From a virus: a DNA stretch of 42,940 nt. Numbering within the stretch: the first letter of the stretch is position 1; every line of letters starts with the position of its first letter. The DNA is taken from positions 1-42,940 of IMG/VR virus record IMGVR_UViG_3300042945_002518; one strand, 5' to 3'. The position numbers and the translations under genes were made by a program. The notes beneath the pieces are model-generated. The model searched no databases. It was not told where the DNA came from and saw nothing but the letters and a program-made list of their open reading frames with translations. Below are positions 3,641 to 38,661 of the stretch, one piece after another.

Positions 3641-4434
3641 GCGAAGGCTTGGAACAGTGGGTATTACCTGACGGTCAATCCGTCTTTCTGGGCAATAACG
3701 AGCCGCCGGTCAGCCTGATTCTGCCGGTTCGTGGCGTGTTGCCAGACGTGCCCGAGCATAAGTGGCAAGAGTTCGACCTGCGAAAAGACACGTCTTATCC
3801 GGTCAAGATCAAGAACCAAGGCTCTTACGGGGCCTGTAATGGTCACGCAGCGGCTTCATCGCTCGAAGATGCCCGTTATATTGCTAACATGGGCTATGTG
3901 CCTTTGTCAGCTTGGCTGGTTTATGCTGATTTATGCAATGGTGTTGATCGTGGCAGTTCGATTGCTGAAGCCCTGACGCTGCTGCAAAAGAGCGGCACTT
4001 GCGACGACGCACTGGTGCCACACGGGGTCATCAATCCCCGCCGAATCGATGCCGGTGCCAGAGAAAACGCCAAGCGATTCAAGGTTGAAATTGGCTATCG
4101 CCTGCAAAACTTCAACGATCTCTGCGTGGCCTGCCAGTTACGAATCCCGTTCAATTTTAGCGTGCCGGTCAATGCGGGCTTTAACATGCTCGACTCCGAA
4201 GGTGCGCCGCAGAATCGGGCAGGCTGGCACAATCACGCCGTATCGGGCGGGTTTGCAATGAAACAAGGCAAATCAGGCTGGCTGATCGGCATGAGAAACA
4301 GTTGGGGTGAACAGTGGGGTAATCAGGGCTACTGCTGGATCGGTGAGCGTAACATCCGAGGCAGTGGCTTTGATGCGTATGGTGTATTTTCAGCGGAAGT
4401 TGACCCAGCCAATCTTCCACCGTCACTAAAATGA
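3637..4434 (+). CDS. Papain-family (C1) cysteine peptidase
   Basis: A 265-residue protein with the full papain catalytic layout: oxyanion Gln61 and nucleophile Cys67 in the segment NQGSYGACNG, His200 in WHNHAVSGG, and Asn221 in the hallmark MRNSWGEQWG, followed by GYCWIG. In classical papains the nucleophile is followed by Trp or Ser; here it is Asn. There is no signal peptide. It lies after four small membrane proteins and a secreted protein, just before the head genes. That is the position where a lysis enzyme is expected, and no muramidase, amidase or transglycosylase is visible in the window. A role in host envelope degradation is inferred. An alternative is processing of virion proteins. 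The family assignment is firm, the biological role is not. Confidence 0.88.
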   Translation: MSEGLEQWVLPDGQSVFLGNNEPPVSLILPVRGVLPDVPEHKWQEFDLRKDTSYPVKIKNQGSYGACNGHAAASSLEDARYIANMGYVPLSAWLVYADLCNGVDRGSSIAEALTLLQKSGTCDDALVPHGVINPRRIDAGARENAKRFKVEIGYRLQNFNDLCVACQLRIPFNFSVPVNAGFNMLDSEGAPQNRAGWHNHAVSGGFAMKQGKSGWLIGMRNSWGEQWGNQGYCWIGERNIRGSGFDAYGVFSAEVDPANLPPSLK

Positions 4435-4459
4435 CACCTGACACCAGTTATGATACAAT
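4431..4459 (+). promoter_or_regulatory. Promoter of the head operon
   Basis: ATGACA (4431-4436) and TACAAT (4454-4459) are separated by 17 bases. The -35 hexamer overlaps the stop codon of the peptidase gene and the spacer carries the heptad operator. It would drive the small basic protein and the downstream head genes. Confidence 0.6.
4432..4446 (+). promoter_or_regulatory. Tandem heptad operator, 14/15 match
   Basis: TGACACCTGACACCA is two identical, directly repeated TGACACC heptads without spacer. It differs from the genome consensus TGACACCAGACACCA at one position. It covers the -35 box and spacer of the head-operon promoter, so a bound protein would block RNA polymerase. Confidence 0.65.
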
Positions 4460-4492
4460 TGTGTTGTTAGGTGGCTTGTAGGAGTTTTGGTT

Positions 4493-4612
4493 ATGGCAAA
4501 AACAAGAAAACCGTTACAGAAGAAGCCTGTGCCACGAATGATCGTGGAGAAGCAGGAAGAGGCTCGCGAGCACAAGCCAAGCAGAAAAGGCAAGCCAAAG
4601 GCCGACTGCTGA
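4493..4612 (+). CDS. Very small basic protein
   Basis: A 39-residue open frame starting with ATG, preceded by TAGGAG eleven bases upstream and placed just behind a recognised promoter. Nearly half of the residues are Lys, Arg or His (for example RKPLQKKPVPR at the N-terminus and KPSRKGKPKADC at the end). The strong basic character suggests nucleic-acid binding or packaging as an internal head protein, and the next gene is also very basic. No family is recognised. Confidence 0.5.
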   Translation: MAKTRKPLQKKPVPRMIVEKQEEAREHKPSRKGKPKADC

Positions 4613-4639
4613 CAATGAGACAGAAAAGGGAGTGATCAA

Positions 4640-6739
4640 ATGGCAATGCGGATGTTTAGATCAATGCGAAATCCGGCCACAAAAACTGGCCGAACCAGCA
4701 ACACGTTTGGCAGTCGGATCAGAACATCCGCAAGAACCATTCGCGAGCAGACTGGAAATCTTGTCCAAGGGATAAGAAAAAGAGCAGCCTCAACAGCTCC
4801 GGCTCGCGGATACCAGCAGGCCACCGCCAGTCGCAATGTCAAAGGCTCCGCTGCGTCTTACGGTGAAAGTGCACGCAAAAAGGCGTACAATGCCGGAGTC
4901 AAGCAGACCCAAAGCCGTGCAATGCAGCATCGTGCTATCGCTGGTGCCCCTTCACCACAGGGATCAAGCTTGGGTTACAAGGTTGGCTTCAGGCTTGGCA
5001 GTCAAGTCGCCGCATCCAAGTACAAAGGTAACATTCGCACGAAGCTCGGCGTTGACCGGCCTAACCCACACATTCAGGGCGGCACTTACAAGGATATTCA
5101 AGGTCGTACTGGGCTTGAGTCAAGAACGCTGACGCAGGCCACCGCTGCACTGATCCAGACCAAGCGTCTTGCTGGTCAGGCCAAGCGATTTGCTGGCTCA
5201 GCCCTGAAGAATAAGCCAGTGCCGCCATCGCACATCCAGAGCCCTGTCAGCAATAAGCCGCTGGTGCCTCCGGGCAGTGCAAGTGCAGCCTATCGTGCCA
5301 CAAGAGGTGGTATCCGTGGTTTTGCAACTGGCGTAAAGTCTGGTTTCCAGATGCCAAAGGCAACTGTACGACAGGCGTACAATGCCGCCCGATTCAACAC
5401 AACCAGTTTTGGCACATTCAAGATCAACACCAAAGCCAACGCTGGTCTGTTTGCAGCCGGATACGGTATCGGCAAAGCAGCCAATCTGACGAAACGGGCT
5501 GTCTTTGCAGGCCAAGATGCAATGTCGGCAGCCATAAAGGCTCCGTTCCGGGCGGCTGCCGGTGGTGCAGGTGTCGCTGCTGGTCTGGGCAGAGGCTTGA
5601 AGTATGCCGCTCAGGGCAACACCACGCTGCGAAACGCCCGATACTCCTACATGAACGCCATGCACGCCGCCAAGATGGGCGACAGCCGTGCCGACCGCAT
5701 TGCAGGCAAGATCGTCGGGCCGCTTGACAGGGCGATGAATTACGGTGCCCGCAAGCTCACGCCTGCTGCTCAGGCTGTTGGGCTGCCAATGTACGAGGCT
5801 TTGAAGTACACGGTCACAAAAGCACCCGGAGATGCATTCAGGGCTGCTAGAGCGGGTATCCAGAACAGAGCGGCTGCGAAAGCCAAGAAGGCACAAGTGG
5901 CTCAGGCTGTTGCCAACGCAACACAGTGGGGTGGCAGAAACTCCACAACGCCAATGGGCAAAAACACCACGGCACAGCAAGTTCGTTACAGCATGGCTAT
6001 GAACAAGAAGGCGGCTGCACAAGCTGCATCTGGTCAAACGCCTTGGGGTCCACGAAACAGCAAGACGCCTGCCGGTCTCAACACCACAGCTCAGTTGGTG
6101 AGATTCAACAACTACATGGCCGGTAAGCGGGCCGTCAGCATGGGACCGCCGCCGCCACCAACGCCTCCTCCAACGCCTCCTCCAACGCCGCCACCGGCCA
6201 AGCCAACACCACCGGTTACACCGCCAGTTACGCCTCAGAACAAGCCAACGCCGTCTGCGGCCTCGGCAGGGACTAGAAAAGGTCGGACATTTGTTGCCGG
6301 TAGCCGGGGCACAACAGTCCGCACAAGTCCACCAAGATTCACTGCGGGACGTGGCAGAAGAATGCCAGCCAAAGTCGCTCGACGAATAGACAGAAATATT
6401 CAGGATTTACAGTCCGCAGTGAAAAAAGATGAAATTAACAGATTTTTCTCCGCTGAGAATCAGTCGTCTGAAGCCACCGGCACTGCGGTAAAACAGGCAA
6501 GACAGAACCGCACAGATTCAGAGCAGGCAACGAGAGACCAGCTTGCGAGGATGCTGTGGGAGAAAAGAGCTTTCGCAAGAGCATCGCAGGCTCAGGCCGC
6601 CTCGCCTCAAACGCCCGCATCCCAGAGCAATCTCTTCAACCAAGAGGCTATTGGGGGTGGCAAGCGAATGGGCAGGCCAAAGGGAAGCACAGACAAGGCC
6701 AAGCGAAAGCCACGAACCAGACGAAACCCGGGGGAGTGA
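4640..6739 (+). CDS. Large basic, Ala/Pro-rich protein of unknown function in the head gene cluster
   Basis: A 699-residue, strongly basic protein rich in Ala, Arg, Lys and Gly. ATG at 4640 follows GGGAG at proper distance. It contains repeated AYNAG/AYRA/QAYNAA phrases and two imperfect tandem copies of a roughly 35-residue unit at about 427-461 and 466-499, sharing W-G-x-R-N-S-x-T-P and N-T-T-A-Q-x-V-R. A proline tract (PPPPPTPPPTPPP) follows at about 503-535, then a charged C-terminus ending in an AT-hook-like GRPKGS. The composition suggests a DNA-binding or disordered virion protein such as an internal or ejection protein. The position upstream of scaffold and coat supports a head role. 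The function is inferred only and no family is recognised. Confidence 0.6.
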   Translation: MAMRMFRSMRNPATKTGRTSNTFGSRIRTSARTIREQTGNLVQGIRKRAASTAPARGYQQATASRNVKGSAASYGESARKKAYNAGVKQTQSRAMQHRAIAGAPSPQGSSLGYKVGFRLGSQVAASKYKGNIRTKLGVDRPNPHIQGGTYKDIQGRTGLESRTLTQATAALIQTKRLAGQAKRFAGSALKNKPVPPSHIQSPVSNKPLVPPGSASAAYRATRGGIRGFATGVKSGFQMPKATVRQAYNAARFNTTSFGTFKINTKANAGLFAAGYGIGKAANLTKRAVFAGQDAMSAAIKAPFRAAAGGAGVAAGLGRGLKYAAQGNTTLRNARYSYMNAMHAAKMGDSRADRIAGKIVGPLDRAMNYGARKLTPAAQAVGLPMYEALKYTVTKAPGDAFRAARAGIQNRAAAKAKKAQVAQAVANATQWGGRNSTTPMGKNTTAQQVRYSMAMNKKAAAQAASGQTPWGPRNSKTPAGLNTTAQLVRFNNYMAGKRAVSMGPPPPPTPPPTPPPTPPPAKPTPPVTPPVTPQNKPTPSAASAGTRKGRTFVAGSRGTTVRTSPPRFTAGRGRRMPAKVARRIDRNIQDLQSAVKKDEINRFFSAENQSSEATGTAVKQARQNRTDSEQATRDQLARMLWEKRAFARASQAQAASPQTPASQSNLFNQEAIGGGKRMGRPKGSTDKAKRKPRTRRNPGE

Positions 6740-7407: not shown

Positions 7408-7418
7408 AGTACGTTCTC

Positions 7419-7447
7419 TTGACACAAGTGTCCATCTTTGTTACAGT
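7419..7447 (+). promoter_or_regulatory. Promoter of the scaffold/capsid operon
   Basis: TTGACA (7419-7424), 17-base spacer, TACAGT (7442-7447). The predicted start is near 7454. The -35 box overlaps a palindrome GACAC-AA-GTGTC (7421-7432) built from the same GACAC core as the heptad operator that lies just downstream. Confidence 0.75.
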
Positions 7448-7455: not shown

Positions 7456-7470
7456 TGACACCAGACACCA
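7456..7470 (+). promoter_or_regulatory. Tandem heptad operator, exact consensus
   Basis: TGACACCAGACACCA, exact match, directly at the predicted transcription start of the scaffold/coat promoter. One of three identical copies in the window (others at 20845 and 38633). Confidence 0.75.
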
Positions 7471-7484: not shown

Positions 7485-8228
7485 ATGTCAGAAGATATTA
7501 GCCAGTACAAAGATTGGCTCAAGGAAAGAAACGAGGAAAACAAGCGTCGCCGGAAAGCACTCCGCGAGGCTGAATCTCGGATCAAGGAACTTGAGCAGTT
7601 GCTGGCTGAAAAAGATCAGCAAATCAATGAATACGAGACTGCTCTCGTAGAGCTGGATGATGTTCGTCTGGATATGGAGCAGCAGCTCCAGAACATTCCT
7701 CAGGAATTGGAGGAATTTCGCCAGCAGGCGTTTCTTGGTCAGCATAAAGAGGCATTCCAGCAGATGCTGGGCGACAGTGGCTTGCACCCGCAGGCTTCAC
7801 TTGAACAGTTGTGGCAGATGGTCGGGTACGACCCTTACCAGATCGAAGAGCTGACACCGGAACTCGTCAACGAAGTTCTGACGGCGGCCAGAGATCAGGC
7901 GCCATTCCTGTTCATGGGCAAAGATGTGTCGCAACAGATGCCGGTACGTCAGTACCAGAGCGGGCCGCAGGCAGCGGCCATGGCTGCACAGAACGGCTTT
8001 GTGCAACCCAGTGGTTTTCTGAGGAGTCCGGCTGTTGCCCAACAGGCATCGCCTATGGCCCCGAAAGCTCCTGAAGGTTGGTCGTCTGTCGCAGCGAGGG
8101 GTGTCCCCATTTCTCCACCAACGCAAGCGATTCAGGGTCGTTTTCAAGACTCCAAGTGGATCGCGGCCAATCAAAAGGCCATAGCGGAAGCGGTCGAGTC
8201 AGGGGCACAGTTTATCAGCTCTGACTGA
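7485..8228 (+). CDS. Capsid scaffolding protein
   Basis: A 247-residue protein directly upstream of the coat gene. Residues about 10-80 form a long coiled coil (KRRRKALREAESRIKELEQL and following heptads). The centre is Gln/Pro/Ala-rich and low in complexity. The C-terminus ends in a short helix (SKWIAANQKAIAEAVESG) typical of the coat-binding end of phage scaffolds. The composition and the scaffold-coat gene order support the call. Scaffolds direct coat assembly into the procapsid and leave before DNA packaging. The start ATG is 14 bases behind the heptad operator, with a weak AGGG ribosome binding site. Confidence 0.75.
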   Translation: MSEDISQYKDWLKERNEENKRRRKALREAESRIKELEQLLAEKDQQINEYETALVELDDVRLDMEQQLQNIPQELEEFRQQAFLGQHKEAFQQMLGDSGLHPQASLEQLWQMVGYDPYQIEELTPELVNEVLTAARDQAPFLFMGKDVSQQMPVRQYQSGPQAAAMAAQNGFVQPSGFLRSPAVAQQASPMAPKAPEGWSSVAARGVPISPPTQAIQGRFQDSKWIAANQKAIAEAVESGAQFISSD

Positions 8229-10312: not shown

Positions 10313-11034
10313 TCAACCTGCTTCCAAGCCAAAGCCTTGACGAACTGATCAACATTGTGGATTGCTTCACAAGGGCGGATCAGTATGCCATGAGCCTTTC
10401 AGCTCGCCTTCAGCTCGTCATGCTGGAAGATAACAGGGTTGGCATCCTCAACGGTACCGATGGCCGTGGCAACCCGCTGACACCCACAAAATACAGATAT
10501 TCCTCAAGCGGTGTCTCCAAAACCGGCCAGCATGGCCAGTATCGAGTCACAAAGCAGGTAAACACCCAGAAGAACACGTTTCGCATCTTCTTTAACTTCA
10601 GCGAGATTCCACGCGATTATCAGTCATACGCTGCCCAGACCAATCTGACAGCCCAGTCAACAACCTCGCTTTACATCGGGGCCAACGCAGTCGGATCGTA
10701 TCGCTCCCAGTTCTTTAATCCCAACCCTGTTGATGCCGACTTTTCGCTCTACCGCAATTTTACCGGGCCACCAACAGCACCAAACTGGGAAGAGTCGCGT
10801 GTGATCTCGAACTATGTCTCACATGACATGACGGCAGGGCCATCCGTCAACGTCTTTTCCCAGTGGGAAGACGTCAGAAATAAAGATGGGTATTCATTTC
10901 TTTCAGACCTGTTTCATGGAGGTGGCAAGTATCCGCCACGTGACCTGACGGGCATCCGGCCATGGGGCCTGCACAATGCCGAAATTCAGGCATCGTATTT
11001 CCTTCAGGATTTAGAGGAGGGCATCTTTGCTTGA
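10309..11034 (+). CDS. Head closure / neck protein candidate
   Basis: A 241-residue protein starting with TTG at 10309. The start overlaps the previous TGA and has GCAGGAG at proper spacing, which decides this start. It contains GTDGRGNPLTPTKYRYSSSG near residues 50-69, resembling the G-x-D-x-x-G-x-P-x-x-P loop of virion morphogenesis or head-tail joining proteins, followed by mixed beta strands. Coupled translation between the connector and the tail terminator candidate suggests a stopper or neck function. No exact family is recognised. Confidence 0.55.
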   Translation: MINLLPSQSLDELINIVDCFTRADQYAMSLSARLQLVMLEDNRVGILNGTDGRGNPLTPTKYRYSSSGVSKTGQHGQYRVTKQVNTQKNTFRIFFNFSEIPRDYQSYAAQTNLTAQSTTSLYIGANAVGSYRSQFFNPNPVDADFSLYRNFTGPPTAPNWEESRVISNYVSHDMTAGPSVNVFSQWEDVRNKDGYSFLSDLFHGGGKYPPRDLTGIRPWGLHNAEIQASYFLQDLEEGIFA

Positions 11035-18781: not shown

Positions 18782-19096
18782 ATGAGTAAAGCATTTCAGG
18801 AATATAAGCCGTGGAAGTCAGTGAATCCTCAGTTCAACCCTGTTTTGCAGCAGGTTCATGAGGATGACGACTCGCTCTACACAGAGCAGATAGCCGAGCC
18901 CTACTACGGCACCATCTATGAGTCAACGATGCTGCTTAATGCAATATCGGGATTGATTCTGGCAATCAAGGACGTACCCAGCCAAATGGAAAATGTGCAA
19001 AAGCTGGCAAACTTCGCCACTGAAAGCATAGTTGGCAAAACAGAAACAATTGACGAAAAGACACCAGAAACAGTTGATCTGTCTCCAGTGATCTGA
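18782..19096 (+). CDS. Hypothetical 104-residue protein
   Basis: Two adjacent in-frame ATGs exist. The second, at 18782, is better spaced from GGAG at 18773 and is chosen. The protein is acidic, with a Pro/Lys/Gln N-terminus (FQEYKPWKSVNPQFNPV), a central helix (MLLNAISGLILAIKDV) that is moderately hydrophobic, and an acidic Thr/Glu-rich tail. It forms a single-gene unit between a promoter and the small-RNA locus. Its 3' end contains both a GACACCAG heptad and the -35 box of the next promoter. No family is recognised. Confidence 0.5.
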   Translation: MSKAFQEYKPWKSVNPQFNPVLQQVHEDDDSLYTEQIAEPYYGTIYESTMLLNAISGLILAIKDVPSQMENVQKLANFATESIVGKTETIDEKTPETVDLSPVI

Positions 19097-19102
19097 TACA
19101 AT
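19074..19102 (+). promoter_or_regulatory. Promoter of the candidate small RNA
   Basis: TTGATC (19074-19079), 17 bases, TACAAT (19097-19102). It lies within the last codons of the preceding gene. A single AGACACCAG heptad is found just upstream at 19059-19067. The predicted start is about 19108-19110. Confidence 0.55.
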
Positions 19103-19108
19103 TAAATA

Positions 19109-19235
19109 GTCGCAAAGGTTAGTCTCGGAGCGACAATCATAGCGTGTGGTCTGGATCTACCTTAACAAGTCTGCAACCCTTGTTATGCGGACCACAAGCC
19201 ATAAACCTACCGCTTGCCGTGCGGTGGGTTTTTTT
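19109..19235 (+). ncRNA. Candidate structured phage small RNA with own promoter and terminator
   Basis: The segment has a promoter (19074-19102), no credible reading frame, and a strong intrinsic terminator, so a transcript of about 125 nt is predicted. Its predicted folds are a 5' hairpin GTCGC (19109-19113)/GCGAC (19130-19134); a 9-bp closing stem TGTGGTCTG (19145-19153)/CGGACCACA (19188-19196) with one G-U pair; and inside it a 7-bp hairpin TAACAAG (19163-19169)/CTTGTTA (19179-19185) with a 9-base loop. The terminator hairpin forms the 3' end. The fold is not a tRNA because D and T arms are absent. The role is unknown; an antisense regulator or a decoy RNA is possible. Confidence 0.5.
19203..19235 (+). 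terminator. Intrinsic terminator of the small-RNA locus
   Basis: An 11-bp stem, AAACCTACCGC (19203-19213) with GCGGTGGGTTT (19221-19231), one G-U pair, loop of 7, ending in a run of seven T (19229-19235). This is the clearest terminator in the region. Confidence 0.85.
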
Positions 19236-19236: not shown

Positions 19237-19266
19237 TTGACTTTGTTACGCCCCCTCCCATAATAT
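19237..19266 (+). promoter_or_regulatory. Promoter directly behind the small-RNA terminator
   Basis: TTGACT (19237-19242) and ATAATA/TAATAT (19260-19266) with a 17-18 base spacer. The heptad operator begins at the last base of the -10 box. It points into a stretch without a supported gene. Confidence 0.65.
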
Positions 19267-19280
19267 GACACCATACACCA
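19266..19280 (+). promoter_or_regulatory. Tandem heptad operator, 14/15 match
   Basis: TGACACCATACACCA, one mismatch to the consensus, covering the predicted transcription start of the preceding promoter. Confidence 0.65.
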
Positions 19281-19679: not shown

Positions 19680-19707
19680 TTGACACCAAACTGACATTTT
19701 GTAGAAT
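19680..19707 (+). promoter_or_regulatory. Promoter with flanking direct and inverted heptads
   Basis: TTGACA (19680-19685), 16 bases, TAGAAT (19702-19707). A TGACACC heptad overlaps the -35 box, and inverted GTGTCAG (19710-19716) and GGTGTCA (19723-19729) lie at and after the start. It drives the replication/recombination gene block beginning near 19746. Confidence 0.65.
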
Positions 19708-19769
19708 AGTGTCAGAAAAGGGGGTGTCAGATTAACAGGAAGATCATTTGCCGGACTCCTGATGAGATT

Positions 19770-20652: not shown

Positions 20653-20847
20653 ATGCACGCAAAGATCATTAAGAACGCAATCGACGAATGCAACCGTTTT
20701 TCCAAGCTGGCCAACGACATTCTGGAGAGCGGTGAAGTCACACCGGCAGACGAGGATGTCTTGAAGCGATTCTCGTTGGACGCCATGAGGTCGCTGCGTC
20801 GCGTGCGTGGTGAATCAGAGAACCAAGAGCCTTCTGAGACAAACTGA
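20653..20847 (+). CDS. Hypothetical 64-residue helical protein
   Basis: The ATG at 20653 with GAGAG upstream is preferred over an in-frame TTG 39 bases earlier, which runs through the hairpin region. The protein is one long charged helix pair (KIIKNAIDECNRFSKLANDI, DEDVLKRFSLDAMRSLRRVR) with an acidic, Asn/Gln/Ser tail. It lies directly in front of a heptad operator and the nuclease gene. No family is recognised. Confidence 0.45.
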   Translation: MHAKIIKNAIDECNRFSKLANDILESGEVTPADEDVLKRFSLDAMRSLRRVRGESENQEPSETN

Positions 20848-20859
20848 CACCAGACACCA
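20845..20859 (+). promoter_or_regulatory. Tandem heptad operator, exact consensus
   Basis: TGACACCAGACACCA overlaps the stop of the preceding gene and ends one base before the ATG of the nuclease gene. No good promoter is seen here, so the site may act on translation initiation, block elongation, or repress read-through transcription. Confidence 0.65.
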
Positions 20860-20860: not shown

Positions 20861-21310
20861 ATGCCACGATACGAAACACTTCAGGATGTTTGCAGGGAAG
20901 CAATGGTCGCAGGATGGCTCGGCCAATTCCTTGGTGCCGTGCCGGTGAAAACAGGGGCGTTTTCGCCGCACGACTACCTTCTGCAAAAGGACGGCAAAAC
21001 GTCTCATGTCATTGAGATCAAGTGCCGTTCCGGGGTCAGAAAGTACAAAGATTACATGGTTTCGGCGGAAAAGTGGCACAACCTCATCGCAGCAGGGTTG
21101 GAACACAAATGCCCAGCCCTGCTTGTTCTTTACGACGAAACTGACAGCCGGATCTATGCCGTTAAGGCGGCCAGTGCAAACGTGAGCCACTTGAGCATTA
21201 TCGGCAGAAACGACCGGCCCGAGCAGCCACCCGAGCCCTCGGTCGTTATTGAGTGGGGAAAGTTCAAGTCCATAGCGATCATCAAAAGAAAGGTAAGCAA
21301 TGTCGGGTGA
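20861..21310 (+). CDS. PD-(D/E)XK-type nuclease (Holliday-junction / VRR-like candidate)
   Basis: A 149-residue protein with the minimal PD-(D/E)XK core: Asp38 in PHDYLLQ, then Glu52-Ile-Lys54 in VIEIKCRSG. An upstream helix carries REAMVAGWLGQF, typical of small phage nucleases that cut branched or ssDNA-flanked substrates. It lies three genes before a RuvC-like resolvase. The first ATG follows the heptad operator at once and no ribosome binding site is visible. A GTG at 20807 would give 18 more residues, but most of that extension lies inside the previous gene. Nuclease fold assignment is fairly good; the substrate is unknown. Confidence 0.65.
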   Translation: MPRYETLQDVCREAMVAGWLGQFLGAVPVKTGAFSPHDYLLQKDGKTSHVIEIKCRSGVRKYKDYMVSAEKWHNLIAAGLEHKCPALLVLYDETDSRIYAVKAASANVSHLSIIGRNDRPEQPPEPSVVIEWGKFKSIAIIKRKVSNVG

Positions 21311-22343: not shown

Positions 22344-22623
22344 GAAAGTTCATTCCATGCCCAAACAGGGAGTGGCCAGCACGTTCAAGTTTGGCGAGAA
22401 CTATGGCGTGATCAAAGGTGTGTCGGCAGGCATTGGCAAGATGTTGGTCGAAGTCACGCCGCAGGAGTGGAAGAAGAGCGTGATCAGGGGCGTCGATCTG
22501 GCCCTTGGTAAGAAAATGTCGGTCGCATTCTGCTGCAACATGTTTTCCAAGGAAAACCTGACCGATGGCGAGGCGGACGCCGCCTGCATGGCCGTGTGGG
22601 GCTGGAAGTTCCTAGCGTTTTAA
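22150..22623 (+). CDS. RuvC-like Holliday junction resolvase
   Basis: A 157-residue protein with the RuvC/RNase H fold signature: Asp13 in IIGIDPGLDGGIA, Glu65 in AIVLEKVHSM, and the C-terminal Asp pair in DGEADAACMAVWG (Asp139/Asp143). It cleaves four-way junctions before packaging or during recombination. GAGAA and AGGAG lie 14 bases upstream of ATG, so a CTG at 22144, which sits at better spacing, is an alternative. The 3' end overlaps the convergent integrase gene by 12 bases. Confidence 0.85.
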   Translation: MQKPEGKWIIGIDPGLDGGIAAYDGLNLIFHQRMPVIKNGTKRVLNIGRIVETLNQPEIQAIVLEKVHSMPKQGVASTFKFGENYGVIKGVSAGIGKMLVEVTPQEWKKSVIRGVDLALGKKMSVAFCCNMFSKENLTDGEADAACMAVWGWKFLAF

Positions 22624-23607
22624 CTTGGCCTTTTCAGCCGACGACAACATGTATTCCGGGTCTTGCTGCATCTTGGCATAGACCCGTGAAATCATGGTCA
22701 GATCAGAATGCCCGACAAGATGCGATAGCGTGACGGTATCCACGCCATTTTTCAACGCCTCGGTGATATAGCCTTTCCTGATCGACCCGAGGTGATACCG
22801 CTTCCCTGTTGCTTTTTTAATTCGATAAAACTGACTGTTGACGTTGCACCTATTCCATGGCGTGCCTTTTTGTGTGACGAAGATGTGACCATCTTTTCGT
22901 TGACCGATTGACTGTTTCACCAGACTCACGGCACGGTCAGTCAAATAAACAATCCTGATGGACTTTTTCCCTTTAGACTCGCTTCGTGGCAGCACGATCC
23001 GGTTAAACTCAGGCTCAAAGTGCCTGACCTCAAAGCAGAAAATTTCCTGCGGCCTCACGCCGGTTTCCCAAGAGAACTCAAGCATCATTCTGAAGTTGAG
23101 GCACTTAACCTGCGACAAGAGGGCGGCAAACTCGCTTGGTGTGATGGCATCTTCCCGGCTGATCTGGGCAGGCTTGCGGAAGTGCTCAATCGGGGAGCGG
23201 TCAATAAACCCCTGCCGCACGGCCCACGAGAACATGGCACAGATTGCCCGGGCAAGATTATGCCTGCTGTTCTGCCCGAGCTGTTTAGTGGAGTCGATGA
23301 TATGGGTGAGGTGGTAGGGCTTAAACTCGTGGCATGCGGTTGCATTCAGAACGGGCATGGCGATGTTCAGAAAATACGCATACCACTCATGCGTCCTGAC
23401 GGCCCTGTTTGACTTGACCCAATTGAGGAACCGGTGAGCGATCTCTGCACAACTCTGCACATCAACCGGCTCATGCGAGGCGATGATCTGGTAATACTTG
23501 GCAAACGCCTCAGAACGCTCCCGAGCAAGCCTGATCTGCTTGTCGCCGATCTGCACGTACCAGCATTTTGTTTGCTTACGATAAAACGGTTTCGGCTTAC
23601 GAGCCAT
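22612..23607 (-). CDS. int: Tyrosine integrase
   Basis: A 331-residue protein. N-terminal residues 1-45 carry a basic arm-binding-type region, and 50-140 the core-binding SAM-like domain. The catalytic residues are visible: Arg185 in TGVRPQEI, Lys212-215 in SKGKKS, Arg277 in GSIRKGYITEAL, His300 in GHSD and nucleophile Tyr310 in SRVYAKM. At the usual H-x-x-R motif position the residue next to Arg277 is Lys instead of His. It mediates site-specific integration and marks the phage as temperate. The start ATG follows GGGG. The tRNA-Pro fragment lies 50 bases upstream of its start. C-terminal style recalls integrases of planctomycetes, which is a weak hint for the host. Confidence 0.92.
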   Translation of the reverse strand: MARKPKPFYRKQTKCWYVQIGDKQIRLARERSEAFAKYYQIIASHEPVDVQSCAEIAHRFLNWVKSNRAVRTHEWYAYFLNIAMPVLNATACHEFKPYHLTHIIDSTKQLGQNSRHNLARAICAMFSWAVRQGFIDRSPIEHFRKPAQISREDAITPSEFAALLSQVKCLNFRMMLEFSWETGVRPQEIFCFEVRHFEPEFNRIVLPRSESKGKKSIRIVYLTDRAVSLVKQSIGQRKDGHIFVTQKGTPWNRCNVNSQFYRIKKATGKRYHLGSIRKGYITEALKNGVDTVTLSHLVGHSDLTMISRVYAKMQQDPEYMLSSAEKAKLKR

Positions 23608-23657
23608 GGGTATGCCCCAAAACTCTGCACAAGCCCGAAAAAATTTGCTGTAACTAG

Positions 23658-23704
23658 TCGGGGCGAAAGGATTTGAACCTCCGACTTCCTGCTCCCAAAG
23701 CAGG
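23658..23704 (-). other. Candidate attP: tRNA-Pro(TGG) 3' half
   Basis: On the minus strand this 47-bp segment reads as the anticodon arm and everything 3' of it in a tRNA-Pro: stem CCTGC/GCAGG around the loop TTTGGGA (anticodon TGG), five-base variable region, T-arm GGAGG/CCTTT around TTCAAAT, acceptor strand CGCCCCG and discriminator A. The 5' half (a CGGGGCG strand and D arm) is absent. This is exactly the pattern of phages that integrate into the 3' end of a host tRNA gene and restore it. Its location next to int supports attP. Confidence 0.65.
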
Positions 23705-23730
23705 CCAAAAGGTGGGCTAAGCCCTTTCGC
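23663..23730. repeat. Inverted repeat framing the attP region
   Basis: GCGAAAGG (23663-23670) and CCTTTCGC (23723-23730) face each other across the tRNA fragment. Inside, GGGCT/AGCCC (23713-23723) forms a second small palindrome. They may be integrase core or arm sites. Confidence 0.4.
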
Positions 23731-23748
23731 AGCAGATTGTTACGAAAA

Positions 23749-24090
23749 TCAGTCCATGTAAGGTTCGACCATTTTTCTGCGATCTTCTTCGCTCAGTTTG
23801 AAGAACTCATGCACAAGGACGTGGAACAATACCTGAGCCTTGGGCTTCCTGCCTTGGCAAAGGTAGCCAGAGTTCCGCAGCCAATCGGTCGCTTCGTTGA
23901 AGTAATACTCCGTGCTGGGCTGCATACGCACATACATGCGTGGGCTTTCGATATCAAGCGTGCTAGGCATCTCGCCCAGCGGAAACTTTGGCTTGACCTC
24001 GGCAGGCTGCGGCAACGTAATTGCAGCCCCAGTCTCAGCGGCAAATTTTCTCATGAGTTCTAAAAGTTGAGCTTGCTCTTCAGGTGTCAT
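23749..24090 (-). CDS. Small DNA-binding regulator candidate (ribbon-helix-helix-like)
   Basis: A 113-residue protein divergent from the RecT operon. The ATG at 24090 has GGGG eight bases upstream; a GTG at 24120 would add ten residues. The C-terminal half shows strand-helix-helix order: RMYVRMQPS (51-59), a helix EYYFNEATDWLRNSG, a Gly/Lys turn, and a helix KAQVLFHVLVHEFFKL (84-99). This is compatible with a ribbon-helix-helix fold, whose repressors bind short tandem repeats. It is the only gene here with its own minus-strand promoter other than int, a typical position for a phage repressor. Its start codon overlaps one TGACACC heptad, compatible with self-control. Function is inferred and no helix-turn-helix motif is visible. 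Confidence 0.45.
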   Translation of the reverse strand: MTPEEQAQLLELMRKFAAETGAAITLPQPAEVKPKFPLGEMPSTLDIESPRMYVRMQPSTEYYFNEATDWLRNSGYLCQGRKPKAQVLFHVLVHEFFKLSEEDRRKMVEPYMD

Positions 24091-24126: not shown

Positions 24127-24156
24127 ATTATGCAACAAAAGTTACAAATAAGTCAA
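24127..24156 (-). promoter_or_regulatory. Minus-strand promoter for the regulator candidate
   Basis: Read on the minus strand, TTGACT (24156-24151), 18-base spacer, CATAAT (24132-24127). It lies back to back with the plus-strand RecT promoter at 24180, giving a divergent control region with the heptad operator on the RecT side. Confidence 0.45.
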
Positions 24157-24179: not shown

Positions 24180-24208
24180 TTGACAGGTCTGGTTGTGACG
24201 GATAGACT
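24180..24208 (+). promoter_or_regulatory. Promoter of the RecT/ThyX operon
   Basis: TTGACA (24180-24185), 17 bases, TAGACT (24203-24208), followed by the inverted heptad operator and a GATAGGAG ribosome binding site. It heads the operon ending with the gene at 27426. Confidence 0.7.
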
Positions 24209-24210
24209 TC

Positions 24211-24225
24211 TGGTGTCTGTTGTCA
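24211..24225 (-). promoter_or_regulatory. Tandem heptad operator on the minus strand, 14/15
   Basis: TGGTGTCTGTTGTCA on the plus strand is the complement of TGACAACAGACACCA, one mismatch to consensus, placed at the predicted transcription start of the RecT operon. It shows that orientation is not important. Confidence 0.6.
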
Positions 24226-24261
24226 CTGTGACAAACCGAGGAGCCGATAGGAGTGAGTGCG

Positions 24262-25143
24262 ATGAGTGCGAATCTTCCAGATAAATCCATTAAATACAAT
24301 TCGCTTGCCGAGATCTCGCAGGTTGCCAATTGGGCGGTCAAATCCGGCCTGTTTGGTGTCAGGTCTGCGGATGAGGCTGCCGTAAAAATCTTGTATGGCG
24401 TCGAAATGGGCCTGCCCACGTTTCAGGCGTTGACTTCGCTCAACCTGATTCAGGGCAAAGTCACCATGGCCGCTAATCTGATGGCGTCGCTGATCAAGCG
24501 GAGTGGCCGTTACAACTATGTGATTCGGACTTGGGATGAAACTGAGTGCGTGATTGACTTCAGTGACAACGGCCAAGCAGCCGGATCATCGTCGTTTACA
24601 ATGGCCGACGCCAAGCGTGCCGGTCTGGTCAGGGGCGGCGGCGGTTGGGATAAGTATCCGAAAGCGATGCTCTTTGCCCGGGCGATCTCGCAGGGGGCAA
24701 GAGCCTACTGTGCAGACGTTTTCTGCGGACCAGTTTATGACCCGGAAGAATTGACCCCAGACACCAGAAATGGCGATGTCAAGCCTGAGGTTGTCAGTGT
24801 GCCGGTGGCTGAGGCACCCACGCCTGAGCTGTCACGTTTTGCGGTTCTGCCTGCCCCAGTGGAGAAGCAGGTGCATCCACTGAAGATTGAGCTGTCGAGC
24901 TACTTTGGGTCTGACAAGCAGGCCATCAAGAACGCGGTGGTGAAGATCTATGAGGTGGCAGCCCGTAACGGGCTTGTTGATGGATCGACAGTTGACGAGA
25001 AGGTCATGTATGCGGAGCTTGTCGGGGTCATTGATCGTGGCAAGCTGAGCATAGAGGATGTCCGCCTGATCATCAGCAGCGACGACGCGATGGTCGTTGA
25101 GGAAGTGGAGGAAGCCGATGCCGCTGACACTGGGGCTGAGTAA
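24262..25143 (+). CDS. RecT-like single-strand annealing recombinase
   Basis: A 293-residue protein. The ATG at 24262 sits eight bases behind GATAGGAG; a GTG nine bases upstream overlaps the ribosome binding site. RecT-family signatures are visible: GVEMGLPTFQALTSLNLIQGKVTMAANLMASLIKRSG in the N-terminal half, then FTMADAKRAGL, WDKYPKAMLFARAISQGAR and a Cys-containing CADVFCGPVYDPEEL. It anneals complementary single strands in phage recombination and replication. A near-consensus heptad (24752-24766) lies inside the coding sequence. The C-terminal 100 residues are acidic and probably recruit partners. A dedicated exonuclease partner is not obvious. Confidence 0.8.
   Translation: MSANLPDKSIKYNSLAEISQVANWAVKSGLFGVRSADEAAVKILYGVEMGLPTFQALTSLNLIQGKVTMAANLMASLIKRSGRYNYVIRTWDETECVIDFSDNGQAAGSSSFTMADAKRAGLVRGGGGWDKYPKAMLFARAISQGARAYCADVFCGPVYDPEELTPDTRNGDVKPEVVSVPVAEAPTPELSRFAVLPAPVEKQVHPLKIELSSYFGSDKQAIKNAVVKIYEVAARNGLVDGSTVDEKVMYAELVGVIDRGKLSIEDVRLIISSDDAMVVEEVEEADAADTGAE
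24752..24766 (+). promoter_or_regulatory. Near-consensus heptad pair inside the RecT gene
   Basis: TGACCCCAGACACCA, 14/15 match. Unlike the others it is intragenic and has no promoter. It could act as a roadblock ('stoperator') or be chance. Confidence 0.4.
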
Positions 25144-25444
25144 AAAAGAGTACATCGACCTGAAGCGTAATGGCGAAAGGATTCGCCTTACGTTTAACAA
25201 GTTTTCCAAGAATAGTCCGAGTCTGACAATTGAATGTGATGGGGGGTGGTCGATTGAACGCATTAGCGGACGAAGAGGAACGGATCGAGGATTTTCTAAG
25301 GAAAGCAATGCCGGTCTTGGGCTTTCGCGTGTTCGTCAACTTGCGAACCGAAGAGGGAAGACTACTCACAAGGACGTTCCACCACGGGATAAGAAAAGCC
25401 CGCCCAAGCCTGACAGAAAGCGAGGCGATGGAGATCGTCTATGA
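25118..25444 (+). CDS. Small protein (CsrA-like pattern possible) with long 3' overlap
   Basis: The ATG at 25118 lies inside the end of the recT gene. The first about 55 residues look genuine: PLTLGLSKKEYIDLKRNGER, IRLTFNKF, PSLTIECDGGWSIERI, a strand-rich pattern that loosely resembles CsrA-type RNA-binding proteins. The remaining half is read out of frame through the next gene and is basic and Pro/Lys-rich. A downstream TTG gene starts at 25254, so the overlap is about 190 bases. The assignment to CsrA is weak. Confidence 0.4.
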   Translation: MPLTLGLSKKEYIDLKRNGERIRLTFNKFSKNSPSLTIECDGGWSIERISGRRGTDRGFSKESNAGLGLSRVRQLANRRGKTTHKDVPPRDKKSPPKPDRKRGDGDRL

Positions 25445-25919: not shown

Positions 25920-26124
25920 TGATGAGGCGTATCATGTGAAAAACCATGTCGTGCGTGATTATTGTTCTGCCTGTCGCATTGATGATCTGTCTCACTCGGA
26001 ACACATGAGGATGTGCGAGCTCGCCGCCGAGGTGATCGTCAAATTTTCACCAGTCAAAGACAAGCTGCCTTCGGCGGAGGAGCTTGGCAACTTTTTCAAG
26101 GCGATAGAGTTTGAATCTCACTAA
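25837..26124 (+). CDS. Hypothetical 95-residue protein
   Basis: The ATG at 25837 follows GGGGGGAAGTG, a strong ribosome binding site, and overlaps the previous gene by 83 bases in another frame. The sequence is helical with two Cys (DYCSACRIDD) and several His (SDEAYHVKNHVV, SHSEHMRM), which could bind metal. It ends shortly after the ThyX start. No family is recognised. Confidence 0.5.
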   Translation: MTDQILFREIARQKALEWKINIDGMPHSDEAYHVKNHVVRDYCSACRIDDLSHSEHMRMCELAAEVIVKFSPVKDKLPSAEELGNFFKAIEFESH

Positions 26125-27112
26125 AGCTGAAGTCATCTGCGATTCTGTCAACCCGCTGGGCAACCGGCTGATCACGCTCGAGCTGGTTTATCCGAGGATT
26201 GTGCACGCAGAGGTCATGAGTTATTGCAGCTTTGCCAGAAACGCCAACAGTAGCCGGGCCATGACGCCCGGCTCTGTCATTCAACAGGTGAGGGACGAGG
26301 GCTTCGTGCCTGAAGTCTGGCGTAAGGCAGATGTGAGAGGGATGATCCCCAAAGGCAAGCTCGACCCGCTGGCAGCAGCCAAAGCAGAGACAATCTGGCG
26401 AGAAGCACTGGCTGACGCTACGAAGCACGCCAAGCGGCTTGACGACCTGAAGGTGGCCCGTGAGCTCACCAACCGGATACTTGAGCCTTTTGCGTGGATA
26501 AAAACGCTGGTGACGGCTTCTTGGCCGAATCTGGCCAACTTCCTGCATCAGCGAATCTCCAGAGAGGCACAGCAGGAGATCAGGGTGCTGGCGGAAGCGG
26601 TCGGCAATGCGATTCACATGAGCAAGCCGGTGGAGCTTGGCAAATCGGGCTGGCACATACCTTACACGAAGATTGACGAGATTGACGACAAGAAGCGGCT
26701 GATGTTGTCAGTGGCCCGTTGTGCCAGAATCAGCTATCGCACGCCACGGTCGATCAACTGGAGTGAAAAGCAGGTAGAGGACGCCGATATTCAGCTTGCG
26801 ATGCGGCTGCAAAGAGACGCCCACTGGTCGCCGTTTGAGCATCAGGCGTTGAGCTGGATACCCGCCGAGTATCGGAACGATCACGACGAGGCGGTTCCCT
26901 ACAAGCTGCGTGGCAAGTTTCAGGATGGCTGGGTGCAGTACAGAAAGACAATATCCGGCGAGTGCTTTACCGATTACAATCTGAACCGGTTTGGCAACGG
27001 TAAGCAGGCCAAAGAGCAGCCACAAAACGATAGGAGCAGTGTTACATGGGCATCGTTTTCAACGGAGTTGTCGAAGTTTCTGGAGAAAACATTGAATACA
27101 CCGGAACCCTGA
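26111..27112 (+). CDS. thyX: Flavin-dependent thymidylate synthase ThyX
   Basis: A 333-residue protein with a TTG start overlapping the preceding gene end. The ThyX signature lies at residues 33-50 in the form HAEVMSYCSFARNANSSRAM (variant of R-H-R-x-x-S-x-N-x-x-S-x-R). Downstream LTNRILEPFAWIKTLVTASW, NFLHQRISREAQQEIRVLA and GWHIPY match the FAD/dUMP-binding core of phage ThyX. It converts dUMP to dTMP using methylenetetrahydrofolate and FAD. The extra C-terminal region (about 200-333) is typical for longer phage versions. Provides nucleotides for replication. Confidence 0.8.
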   Translation: MNLTKAEVICDSVNPLGNRLITLELVYPRIVHAEVMSYCSFARNANSSRAMTPGSVIQQVRDEGFVPEVWRKADVRGMIPKGKLDPLAAAKAETIWREALADATKHAKRLDDLKVARELTNRILEPFAWIKTLVTASWPNLANFLHQRISREAQQEIRVLAEAVGNAIHMSKPVELGKSGWHIPYTKIDEIDDKKRLMLSVARCARISYRTPRSINWSEKQVEDADIQLAMRLQRDAHWSPFEHQALSWIPAEYRNDHDEAVPYKLRGKFQDGWVQYRKTISGECFTDYNLNRFGNGKQAKEQPQNDRSSVTWASFSTELSKFLEKTLNTPEP

Positions 27113-27464: not shown

Positions 27465-27480
27465 TGGTGTATTGACACCA
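27465..27480. promoter_or_regulatory. Inverted heptad operator
   Basis: TGGTGT-ATTG-ACACCA is a perfect 6+6 inverted repeat that overlaps the -35 box of the next promoter. A second TGACACCAGA half site lies at 27424-27433, overlapping the stop codon. Confidence 0.6.
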
Positions 27481-27500
27481 TATAGCAGTTGCCATATATT
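27472..27500 (+). promoter_or_regulatory. Promoter of the DUF932 gene
   Basis: TTGACA (27472-27477), 17 bases, TATATT (27495-27500). The leader after it has the hairpin CGGCA/TGCCG (27511-27529) and the ribosome binding site GATAGGAG (27541-27548). Confidence 0.75.
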
Positions 27501-28638: not shown

Positions 28639-28659
28639 ACCCCCCAGTCCATGGGGGGT
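28639..28659 (+). promoter_or_regulatory. Very stable leader hairpin
   Basis: ACCCCCC (28639-28645) and GGGGGGT (28653-28659), loop AGTCCAT. There is no T-run, so it is not a normal terminator. It sits just upstream of a GATAGGAG ribosome binding site and a 12-codon frame, and may control access to that site or stabilise the mRNA. Confidence 0.55.
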
Positions 28660-29506: not shown

Positions 29507-29535
29507 TTGACTTCTGGTGTCACTTGCCATACATT
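29507..29535 (+). promoter_or_regulatory. Promoter of the glutamine amidotransferase gene
   Basis: TTGACT (29507-29512), 17 bases, TACATT (29530-29535). The spacer carries an inverted TGGTGTCA heptad (29515-29522); a second, TGGTGTCAG, lies upstream at 29475. The ribosome binding site GATAGGAG is at 29584-29591. Confidence 0.75.
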
Positions 29536-30426: not shown

Positions 30427-30455
30427 TTGACCTTTGCTATCTGGTGTCATATATT
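30427..30455 (+). promoter_or_regulatory. Promoter of the gene at 30515
   Basis: TTGACC (30427-30432), 17 bases, TATATT (30450-30455). An inverted TGGTGTCA heptad (30442-30449) fills the end of the spacer. The leader contains TGGCCA-ACG-TGGCCA (30465-30479), another hairpin, before AGGAG. Confidence 0.75.
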
Positions 30456-31400: not shown

Positions 31401-31429
31401 TTGACATCAGACGACAAAATCGATAAACT
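31401..31429 (+). promoter_or_regulatory. Promoter of the gene at 31490
   Basis: TTGACA (31401-31406), 17 bases, TAAACT (31424-31429). The degenerate heptad pair TGACATCAGACGACA (12/15) overlaps it, and TGACACC lies downstream at 31459. Palindrome ATGGCA-CAAA-TGCCAT at 31436-31451 is near the predicted start. Confidence 0.6.
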
Positions 31430-31489
31430 TGACATATGGCACAAATGCCATGACAAATTGACACCATCACGATAGAGGAGAGAATCAGG

Positions 31490-33872: not shown

Positions 33873-33900
33873 TTGCCATCATTAGTCTGTTTGCTATAAG
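33873..33900 (+). promoter_or_regulatory. Promoter for the accessory gene block
   Basis: TTGCCA (33873-33878), 16 bases, TATAAG (33895-33900). A TGACACCAGATA heptad (33905-33916) covers the predicted start. AAGGGGGAGG (33924-33932) gives a ribosome binding site for the peptide at 33940. Confidence 0.55.
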
Positions 33901-33939
33901 ATGTATGACACCAGATATAAGGCAAGGGGGAGGCGTGTT

Positions 33940-35278: not shown

Positions 35279-35280
35279 AC

Positions 35281-36184: not shown

Positions 36185-36475
36185 ATGCCGATCAAGCCTG
36201 AATCTATCACCAAACAACAGGCGGAAAAGTTCGCCGAACTCATGGACGCCGATTTCGGACGGTTCCTAAATGATTATCAGGCAATCCCAATCGATAAGAT
36301 TGCCAATGCTTTAATCGAGGCCGGGATTGTCAGCCCGCCGGTGTATGTTGTCCGCAACACTAAAACGGGCGAACTGGCACGGCATCCTCTCGGTGATGTC
36401 GCTCTTGTAGTTGCCGACACTTGGCTGGTTGTAGAAGGTTGGGAGCGTGAGCACTGGAAAGGGCAGGCTGAATGA
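36185..36475 (+). CDS. Hypothetical 96-residue protein
   Basis: ATG at 36185 behind GGAGG. It has an N-terminal helical part (TKQQAEKFAELMDADFGRFL) and a beta part with VYVVRNTKTGELARHPLG and VADTWLVVEGWEREHW. It overlaps the DUF3310 gene by ATGA. No family is recognised. Confidence 0.5.
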   Translation: MPIKPESITKQQAEKFAELMDADFGRFLNDYQAIPIDKIANALIEAGIVSPPVYVVRNTKTGELARHPLGDVALVVADTWLVVEGWEREHWKGQAE

Positions 36476-36849
36476 AACAGCTTAAACATAAGCCATTTCT
36501 AATTTCGCCGGAGTTGCGGGAATCGCTACGAAAGCTGGATGAAAAAAGTATCAAGGTCACAATGGCAGAAACAATGAGCGGCCCAGACGATCCTATCAAC
36601 CCTGACCACTACAAGAACCACCCGTCCGGCGTAGAGTGCATTCAAATCACAGAACACATGAATTTCTGCCGTGGCAACGCTATCAAATACCTTTGGCGTG
36701 CGGGTGAAAAGGGCGATGTGATTGAGGATTTGAAGAAGGCCCGATGGTACGTTGATCGCGAGATTCAAAGGCTGGAATTTATCGCGAAAGACAAGTTCCG
36801 TTCAGAGGAAATCTTGATCGGTGAAGGCTTGGAAGGGGGAAATCAGTGA
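36472..36849 (+). CDS. DUF3310-family protein
   Basis: A 125-residue protein. The DUF3310 signature is clear: DPINPDHYKNHPSGVECIQI (about 40-59), FCRGNAIKYLWRAGEKG and DVIEDLKKARWYVDREI. The family is common in phages and has been described as a nucleotide-kinase-like or nucleotide metabolism accessory protein, without firm biochemical proof. The N-terminal 35 residues are an extra basic helix. The gene is coupled to both neighbours by ATGA and GTGA overlaps. Confidence 0.75.
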   Translation: MKQLKHKPFLISPELRESLRKLDEKSIKVTMAETMSGPDDPINPDHYKNHPSGVECIQITEHMNFCRGNAIKYLWRAGEKGDVIEDLKKARWYVDREIQRLEFIAKDKFRSEEILIGEGLEGGNQ

Positions 36850-37070
36850 GCGATCCAACGAAAGAGCATGTGCTTTTTGACATTCCAGTCTGGTGCTATG
36901 AGCCGGATTTTGTCGAGCGTATGGCAAAATTAACTATGGGGGAATTTTTGAAAATAGATGACGATGACGTAACGCGGCATATCCATAAAGCAAAAGAAAA
37001 ATTCAACAGGTATTGCGAGCGTATCGAGCGTTTTCGGCCAAAAACGATCATTGTTTCGCCTGACATTTAA
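36846..37070 (+). CDS. Hypothetical 74-residue protein
   Basis: GTG start at 36846 overlapping the DUF3310 stop, with GGAAGGGGG upstream. Mixed sequence with a Cys (PVWCYEPDFVERMAKL) and an acidic/basic helix (IHKAKEKFNRYCERIERF). No family is recognised. Confidence 0.5.
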   Translation: MSDPTKEHVLFDIPVWCYEPDFVERMAKLTMGEFLKIDDDDVTRHIHKAKEKFNRYCERIERFRPKTIIVSPDI

Positions 37071-37088
37071 CAAAAAGGATGAAAAAAG

Positions 37089-37361
37089 ATGCCTGACGCC
37101 AAACAACCATCGACTGACGTTATTGTTGCCAAGATACTGCTAAGCGTGAGCGGTTCAAGCTCCGACGCCTACACAGAATCACTTCTTGGCGGTGCCATAT
37201 TGGCCCTCACCATCCAAAAGCAGCAGTTTGAGGCACAACTGGAGGCCATTAATGAAAACAAAAACCAACCCACCATGGATCAGCAACGAGTGGGAGAGAT
37301 GCCGAAGGGACCCAGTCCGGTTCAATCGAGTAATACTGAAACGGCACAAGCTGTGGAGTAA
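37089..37361 (+). CDS. 90-residue protein overlapping TerL; small terminase candidate
   Basis: ATG at 37089, weak AAGGATG upstream. The N-terminal 60 residues form helices (STDVIVAKILLSVSG, LGGAILALTIQKQQFEAQLE); the C-terminal 30 residues are disordered (Pro/Gln/Ser/Thr-rich) and are read through the beginning of TerL in another frame. Location before TerL is where a small subunit would lie, but it lacks a visible helix-turn-helix DNA-binding part, so the assignment is weak. Confidence 0.4.
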   Translation: MPDAKQPSTDVIVAKILLSVSGSSSDAYTESLLGGAILALTIQKQQFEAQLEAINENKNQPTMDQQRVGEMPKGPSPVQSSNTETAQAVE

Positions 37362-38625
37362 GCAGGCAAGCATACTCGACAGCTTCCAGAAGTATCCTGT
37401 CACACTCTGTAAGGCCGGAAACTCGGTCGGCAAGTCTTATGCACTGGCCGCCGCCGCCCTGCACTATCTGGCCTACAATCCCGGTGCCAAGATCATCTGC
37501 ACCGCCCCGTCACACACCCAGCTCAGGGAAGTTCTCTGGGCCAACATTGTTGAGGCGTACAACAACTGCCCCTACAAAATCTTCGACAATGCCAGACTTT
37601 CAAAGTCTCCTGACCTGAAACTGGAAGTCTCGCCCTCATGGTTCATCCTCGCCTACTCCACCACCACCGCAGAAAGATTTTCCGGGCACCACTCACGCAG
37701 GCTGGCCGTGATCGTTGATGAAGCGTCTGGTGTTAATCGCGAGATCTTTGAGGCTGCCGACTCGCTTATCCCACACCGCATGCTTCTGATCGGCAACCCG
37801 CTCCGTCCTGAAGGCGTATTCTACGAGCGATGTCTGAGGGCCAGCCAGACTTCCGGCACAAACCTCATCACCATAAAGTCCACCGAAAGCCCCGACATTG
37901 CAGTGCCACACTCCAATCGCGGCCTCGCCTGCCAGAACTGGCTGGATAAATGCCGTTCAGACTACGGCGAAGGGTCAATGTGGTGGAAGGCACACGTTGA
38001 CGCTGAATTTCCAACCTCCGGGGCCGAACAAGTCATCCCGTCCGACTGGCTCAACGCCTGCGAAACAGTTGTCTGGACACAAGCTGGCCACCGCAGGCTC
38101 GGCATCGACCTCTCCACAGGCTCAGGCGGAGACAAAACAGTCCTCATCGTTCGCGACGACAACGGTGTGCTTGAAGTCATGCACTCAAACGAATGGTCGC
38201 TTGAAGAAACAGCCCGCCGCTGCTACGAGCTCGTTATGCGGTTCAAGATCATGCCCCAGCACGTCGTCTGGGATATGCCCGGGATCGGCATGGACTTCGC
38301 CTACCGCCTCGAATCAGTCGGCATCCACGGGGCCACCGGATTCCAAGGCCAACGCTTCTCCGGCAAAATCCACGCCAACCTCAAAACAGCCGCCTACTGG
38401 AACATGCGACAACGACTCGACCCCAAAGGCGTCTGGCCTCAACGATTCAGCATCAGCCCAAGCTACACCAAGCTCTTCAGAGACGAACTCGCCGCCACAC
38501 GATACACAATCGATGCCTCTGACAGAATCGCCATCGTTCCTAAAGACGATATCATCGCCGCTCTTGGCCATTCGCCAGACTTCGCCGACGCACTGGCCAT
38601 GACATTCGCCTACCCCAATATCTGA
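37252..38625 (+). CDS. terL: Terminase large subunit
   Basis: A 457-residue protein. The ATG at 37252 is six bases behind GGAGG, which decides the start over longer in-frame options. ATPase domain: Walker A variant KAGNSVGKS (54-62), Walker B AVIVDEA (152-158) with Asp156/Glu157, coupling motif MLLIGNP. Nuclease domain: Asp286 in LGIDLSTGSGGDKT, Asp341 in VVWDMPG, and Asp443/Asp446 in SPDFADALAM, matching the RNase H-like nuclease. It packages DNA into procapsids via the portal and cuts the concatemer. The gene overlaps the previous one by 110 bases. Confidence 0.92.
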   Translation: MKTKTNPPWISNEWERCRRDPVRFNRVILKRHKLWSKQASILDSFQKYPVTLCKAGNSVGKSYALAAAALHYLAYNPGAKIICTAPSHTQLREVLWANIVEAYNNCPYKIFDNARLSKSPDLKLEVSPSWFILAYSTTTAERFSGHHSRRLAVIVDEASGVNREIFEAADSLIPHRMLLIGNPLRPEGVFYERCLRASQTSGTNLITIKSTESPDIAVPHSNRGLACQNWLDKCRSDYGEGSMWWKAHVDAEFPTSGAEQVIPSDWLNACETVVWTQAGHRRLGIDLSTGSGGDKTVLIVRDDNGVLEVMHSNEWSLEETARRCYELVMRFKIMPQHVVWDMPGIGMDFAYRLESVGIHGATGFQGQRFSGKIHANLKTAAYWNMRQRLDPKGVWPQRFSISPSYTKLFRDELAATRYTIDASDRIAIVPKDDIIAALGHSPDFADALAMTFAYPNI

Positions 38626-38631
38626 TTGCAA

Positions 38632-38661
38632 TTGACACCAGACACCAAATAAGCATAATAT
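38632..38661 (+). promoter_or_regulatory. Promoter ahead of the portal gene
   Basis: TTGACA (38632-38637) and ATAATA/TAATAT (38655-38661), spacer 17-18. The exact heptad operator overlaps the -35 box and spacer. A terminator lies only 30 bases behind its predicted start. Confidence 0.7.
38633..38647 (+). promoter_or_regulatory. Tandem heptad operator, exact consensus
   Basis: TGACACCAGACACCA, exact copy, covering the -35 box and most of the spacer of the portal promoter. Confidence 0.75.

Follow-up and report, generated by a model that had tools for sequence, protein, structure and literature searches.

A recurrent 15-bp sequence is the probable operator of a phage-encoded repressor at early and late promoters of a temperate phage

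The window analysed here, a whole IMG/VR entry of 42,940 nucleotides, is from a temperate phage with an integrase, a terminase, RecT and ThyX, and carries a dispersed 15-bp sequence that is concentrated at its strong predicted promoters. This sequence is probably the operator of one phage-encoded repressor that silences the prophage, most likely the product of the gene at 23749-24090. The genes referred to below were:

22612 to 23607, minus strand: tyrosine integrase
23749 to 24090, minus strand: candidate repressor gene, 113 amino acids, leftward, beside attP and the integrase
24253 to 25143: RecT
26111 to 27112: ThyX
37186 to 38625: large terminase
38752 to 40314: portal (weak match)

The segment between the integrase and the candidate repressor gene (23608-23748) resembled the 3' half of a tRNA, with an anticodon-loop-like stretch, TTTGGGA, and judging from its sequence is probably attP in a tRNA-Pro gene. 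Over 54 bp the attP-like sequence matched one locus of a Planctomycetales MAG at 89% identity, and the best bacterial terminase match was likewise in a Planctomycetales MAG. Since that match was 35% and tRNAs are conserved widely, the Planctomycetales were regarded as a lead to the host only. No near DNA matches for the first 25 kb were found among 50,697 phages. The N-terminal part of the protein encoded at 25118-25444 resembled CsrA by eye.

Exact copies of the 15-mer, TGACACCAGACACCA, were found at 7456, 20845 and 38633. When up to three mismatches were allowed there were 15 sites, whereas shuffles that preserved dinucleotides averaged 1.41 and never reached 15. The recurrence beyond chance claimed in the first-pass annotation was confirmed, as were the coordinates, strands and mismatch numbers of all seven 15-mer sites that it listed. 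An unseeded ranking of all 14-mers placed the motif at the top in the phage genome, and the same search did not return it among the leading 14-mers of those relatives to which it was applied. Of the 15 sites, 11 fell in noncoding DNA, which makes up only about 10% of the genome (binomial p 8e-9); eight of the 11 were in the forward orientation and three inverted (24211, 29508 and 30435). The heptad WGACACC alone had 21 noncoding copies, compared with 4.0 expected. The predicted operators and the promoters associated with them were:

4432 to 4446, plus strand: operator TGACACCTGACACCA, covering the -35/spacer of promoter 4431-4459, which precedes gene 4640-6739
7456 to 7470, plus strand: operator TGACACCAGACACCA, just 3' of promoter 7419-7447, before gene 7485-8228
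19059 to 19073: weak heptad site AGACACCAGAAACAG, listed in the first-pass annotation for promoter 19074
19266 to 19280, plus strand: operator TGACACCATACACCA, directly after the -10 of promoter 19237-19264
19681 to 19687, plus strand: single heptad TGACACC, the -35 of promoter 19680-19707, with an inverted heptad at 19723-19729
20845 to 20859, plus strand: exact operator where genes 20653-20847 and 20861-21310 are separated by 13 nt, a stoperator-like position
24127 to 24156, minus strand: leftward promoter TTGACT-18-CATAAT of the candidate repressor gene, core without operator
24211 to 24225, minus strand: operator TGACAACAGACACCA, after the -10 of promoter 24180-24208 (recT operon), in the region divergent with the candidate repressor
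24752 to 24766, plus strand: near-exact operator within the recT coding sequence
27473 to 27487, plus strand: operator TGACACCATATAGCA, covering the -35/spacer of promoter 27472-27500, the strongest
29508 to 29522, minus strand: operator TGACACCAGAAGTCA, over promoter 29507-29535
30435 to 30449, minus strand: operator TGACACCAGATAGCA, in the spacer of promoter 30427-30455
31402 to 31416, plus strand: operator TGACATCAGACGACA, over promoter 31401-31429, with another heptad at 31459
33906 to 33920, plus strand: operator TGACACCAGATATAA, after the -10 of promoter 33873-33900
38633 to 38647, plus strand: exact operator, covering the -35/spacer of late promoter 38632-38659 between terminase and portal

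Promoters were predicted by a sigma70-type score. The eight best sigma70-like promoters on the plus strand all carried the motif or a single heptad, and nine of the 12 best had a noncoding site, where random placement in noncoding DNA gave 1.5 (p 5e-5). The heptad includes TGACA and may provide a -35 hexamer by itself, and for this reason promoters with both hexamers outside the operators were tested separately; five of these seven had a noncoding site, compared with 0.81 expected (p 2.5e-4). As had been proposed, five of the seven near-exact sites (4432, 7456, 19266, 24211 and 38633) lay at promoters, while 20845 and 24752 had none (best scores 5.1 and 3.1). The single or degenerate heptads noted earlier at other promoters were real at 19680, 27472, 29507, 30427, 31401 and 33873 and weak at 19074.

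The operator centres fell between -27 and -20 at promoters 4431, 19680, 27472, 29507, 30427, 31401 and 38632, and at about +2 to +9 at promoters 7419, 19237, 24180 and 33873. The use of two placements and of both orientations fits a repressor and does not fit an activator or a promoter element of fixed spacing. In the proposed mechanism, a single phage repressor would bind at almost all strong sigma70-type promoters of the lytic units transcribed rightward, both early and late, and would block RNA polymerase either by covering the -35/spacer region (the first group of centres) or by occupying the start site (the second). The sites at 20845 and 24752, away from promoters, may be elongation roadblocks. 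The repressor itself would be made from the gene next to attP and the integrase. The best noncoding promoter on the minus strand (24156-24127) belongs to this gene and has no operator in its core, the pattern to be expected if the product of 23749-24090 maintained lysogeny and the rightward units served lytic growth.

The system had been thought to control late, early and RNA genes together. Early and late promoters did carry predicted operators, and the extension to RNA genes was weakened when an Rfam search gave no matches. A counterpoint to the repressor model is that direct repression of late promoters leaves the timing of the lytic cycle unexplained. The 125 nt at 19108-19232, running from promoter 19074-19102 to an intrinsic terminator, folded much better than shuffles (z -3.3) and, from its sequence, is possibly a small RNA; its promoter lacks a good operator site.

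The internal structure of the motif was examined by aligning the noncoding WGACACC copies on one copy only, because searching for a pair would bias the result, and then scoring the flanking bases. On average the seven bases after the anchored heptad agreed with it at 4.05 of 7 positions, and those before it at 3.43, compared with about 2 at other offsets. No excess of a third heptad appeared at +14. In the refined matrix the strongest positions were A3 and A10, positions 11-13 were nearly free, and the weakest in the core were 11 and 13. The first heptad was nearly invariant across sites. Thus, of the two contiguous WGACACC units described in the first-pass annotation, the direct repeat at exactly 7 bp was upheld and the second unit proved degenerate in about half of the sites; the operator unit is best described as two direct-repeat heptads, the second often degenerate. 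Given this degeneracy, an asymmetric 15-bp site recognised by a protein of another fold is conceivable. The repressor would probably bind as two units to these half-sites, strongly to the first (TGACACC) and more weakly to the second. A palindrome as the general rule was rejected because A at position 10 was nearly invariant where G would be required; moreover, inverted heptads were in weak excess only, at +8 and -9. Palindrome-like inverted halves were present at site 29508 and on the minus strand at 24204-24218 (AGACACCAGAAGTCT), and inverted heptads at some promoters (19723, 29476 and 33963).

The position of the gene and the logic of the promoters indicate that the repressor is most likely the 113-residue product of 23749-24090. 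This protein matched no Pfam or PDB family, no DNA-binding domain could be recognised in it, and tblastn against 50,697 phage records gave nothing credible, which would place the candidate repressor outside all known families. Searches with the candidate, RecT or an 847-residue tail-region protein returned no usable relatives, none were found in 392 genomes from the phylum of a distant terminase relative (a search without a positive control), and no relative with both the candidate and the motif was found. A single-sequence AlphaFold2 model was poor (mean pLDDT 48.5) with helices at 58-74 and 83-97, preceded by PRMYVRM, a possible strand read from the sequence only. As modelled, the order of these elements is compatible with a ribbon-helix-helix fold. 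A heptad, TGACACC, at 24083-24089 overlaps the start codon of the gene and is possibly autoregulatory, so that the candidate gene may not be wholly free of the operator system.

One special case of the repressor model, a tentative one, is that an omega-like ribbon-helix-helix protein binds contiguous heptads in either orientation. The omega protein (ParB) of plasmid pSM19035 binds contiguous WATCACW heptads over promoters, 7-10 per site, and also serves plasmid partition (PMC9499535). The phage sites resemble these in being non-palindromic, contiguous 7-bp repeats that overlap promoters, and the exact 7-bp repeat, the strong single heptads, the inverted heptads at promoters and the modelled helices after the possible strand all favour such a protein. 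However, the sequence differs and the sites have two heptads, with none enriched at +14, rather than the 7-10 of omega (PMC9499535), and the ribbon-helix-helix candidate is a low-confidence model of a protein without a Pfam, PDB or credible phage match. The contiguous 7-bp repeat of the omega-type system suggested earlier was borne out; its regulator was not established.

It is rather doubtful that the 15-mer is an asymmetric recognition site for a monomeric protein that has two DNA-binding domains, as do the repressors of cluster A mycobacteriophages. The stoperators of these phages (L5, TipsytheTRex) number more than 20, are 13 bp long, lie in many cases away from promoters and have mostly one orientation; the repressor is monomeric and two-domain, and related phages have different cognate motifs (PMC9283540, PMC6550527). 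Points of likeness are the dispersal of asymmetric sites over promoters and short gaps between genes, the relatives with other motifs, a nearly invariant first half, the nearly free positions 11-13 and the stoperator-like positions of the near-exact sites 20845 and 24752. In contrast, the strong noncoding sites of the phage number about 11, most of them at promoters; they occur in either orientation, three being inverted, and among the near-exact sites only 20845 and 24752 (inside recT) are away from promoters. The repeat at +7 also stood far above other offsets, and the candidate gene encodes only 113 residues.

Two fragments, G001 and G002, had terminases 82% identical to that of the phage; both are without the candidate-repressor region and, since the regions compared hardly differed between them, were counted as one relative. 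The G001 promoters at 28641, 10484, 23765 and 26054, among its best, carried the motif. At 10484, before a 248-residue gene, the -35, the -10 and the operator were kept and the flanks had diverged. The operator position at 7456 was conserved in G001 and G002, and TTGACACCAG was kept in the terminase-portal gap of the nearest relative, shifted but at the promoter there. The operators were thus retained at two late promoters, where loss of the motif from a kept promoter, named in the first-pass annotation as contrary evidence, was not seen; the operator at 4432 was not kept in G001.

The motif was absent from eight relatives with terminases about 50% identical (G003-G005, G007-G010 and G012). 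These had GTATTRACCAG, with 2-7 noncoding copies each (at most one mismatch) compared with at most 0.8 expected, and in G003 and G007 this sequence was also at the terminase-portal promoter. On sequence grounds the best promoters of G006 seem to carry a third sequence, ATTACAGTA/TACTG. That relatives have another repeated sequence at the promoter between terminase and portal is as expected for immunity types. Six relatives (G005, G006, G007, G008, G010 and G012) encode a family of proteins of about 100 residues at the integrase-side position, with tRNA-like stretches at the same place in G006 and G010; the structure model of the family (pLDDT 57) gave no useful fold match. Homology of the candidate to these proteins was rejected (hhalign probability 0.2%, alignment z below 1.5). 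A comparison with an 80-residue protein beside the terminase of the relatives gave z of about 5-8, but with many gaps and a different order of features, and was regarded as chance-like.

It is conceivable, if unlikely, that the candidate is a master immunity repressor of a new ribbon-helix-helix family, with tandem heptads silencing early and late promoters directly, and that the relatives have an unrelated small protein at the same position with operators of its own. If so, the regulator and its operators at every promoter would have been exchanged as one set.

A role of the motif as an activator site or as a promoter element peculiar to the phage is improbable. The heptad does supply the -35 hexamer in five promoters (4431, 19680, 27472, 31401 and 38632), but in five others the site is in the spacer or after the -10, outside the hexamers and in both orientations, and such variable placement does not suit an activator. 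The operator of a borrowed host regulator, for example an SOS-type repressor, is more improbable still, given that relatives with terminases about 50% identical use another sequence and that the Planctomycetales MAG with the 35% terminase relative, the one bacterial genome checked, had, at no more than one mismatch, a single site in 6.9 Mb, close to the chance level.

The closest parallel to one phage repressor acting at dispersed operators is SPbeta, in which a 15-bp sequence, SPBRE, is repeated at about ten promoters and bound by the prophage master repressor MrpR, a protein with a tyrosine-recombinase fold (PMC10516654). The phage shares with it a motif of about 15 bp at many promoters across a single prophage and sites kept at orthologous promoters in a relative (two late promoters in one independent relative, with 4432 lost). 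Unlike SPBRE, the sequence is another one, late promoters are included and the half-sites form a 7-bp direct repeat; and, unlike MrpR, the candidate is a 113-residue protein without a family match. Position and promoter logic point to 23749-24090 as the gene for the phage-encoded master repressor of lysogeny that such a system would have. The system belongs with the SPBRE/MrpR kind and has features of stoperators and omega heptads; what had been called a new operator family is new in sequence, while dispersed prophage operators are a kind already known (PMC10516654, PMC6550527, PMC9283540).

The analysis yields a near-complete predicted regulatory map for a temperate phage of an uncultured group, in which essentially all strong promoters, late ones included, share one operator. 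It suggests that a single phage protein, probably encoded beside the integrase, could switch off the whole virus during dormancy. The relatives with other operators at the same places offer a natural series for the simultaneous change in specificity of a repressor and a dozen sites.

Elsewhere in IMG/VR the exact 15-mer occurred in 72 stretches, none with three dispersed copies; one of these (L194) was a tandem array and another (L145) a local cluster. In the latter, at L145:72-560, TGACACC was clustered in both orientations beside repeated CCGGACATG, with nine copies of TGACACC in a 5.1-kb locus of a 120-kb contig, which looks like a replication or partition region. Repeats of another kind were seen in G006 (L024:1805-4823), where about ten copies of TTCCAAGAGCGGTGTCGGT (at most five mismatches) lay mostly just after the stop codons of successive small genes, and a similar set, CGGTATGAGCAGTGTCAGT, was present in G010; by their sequence and position these may be stoperator-like intergenic repeats.
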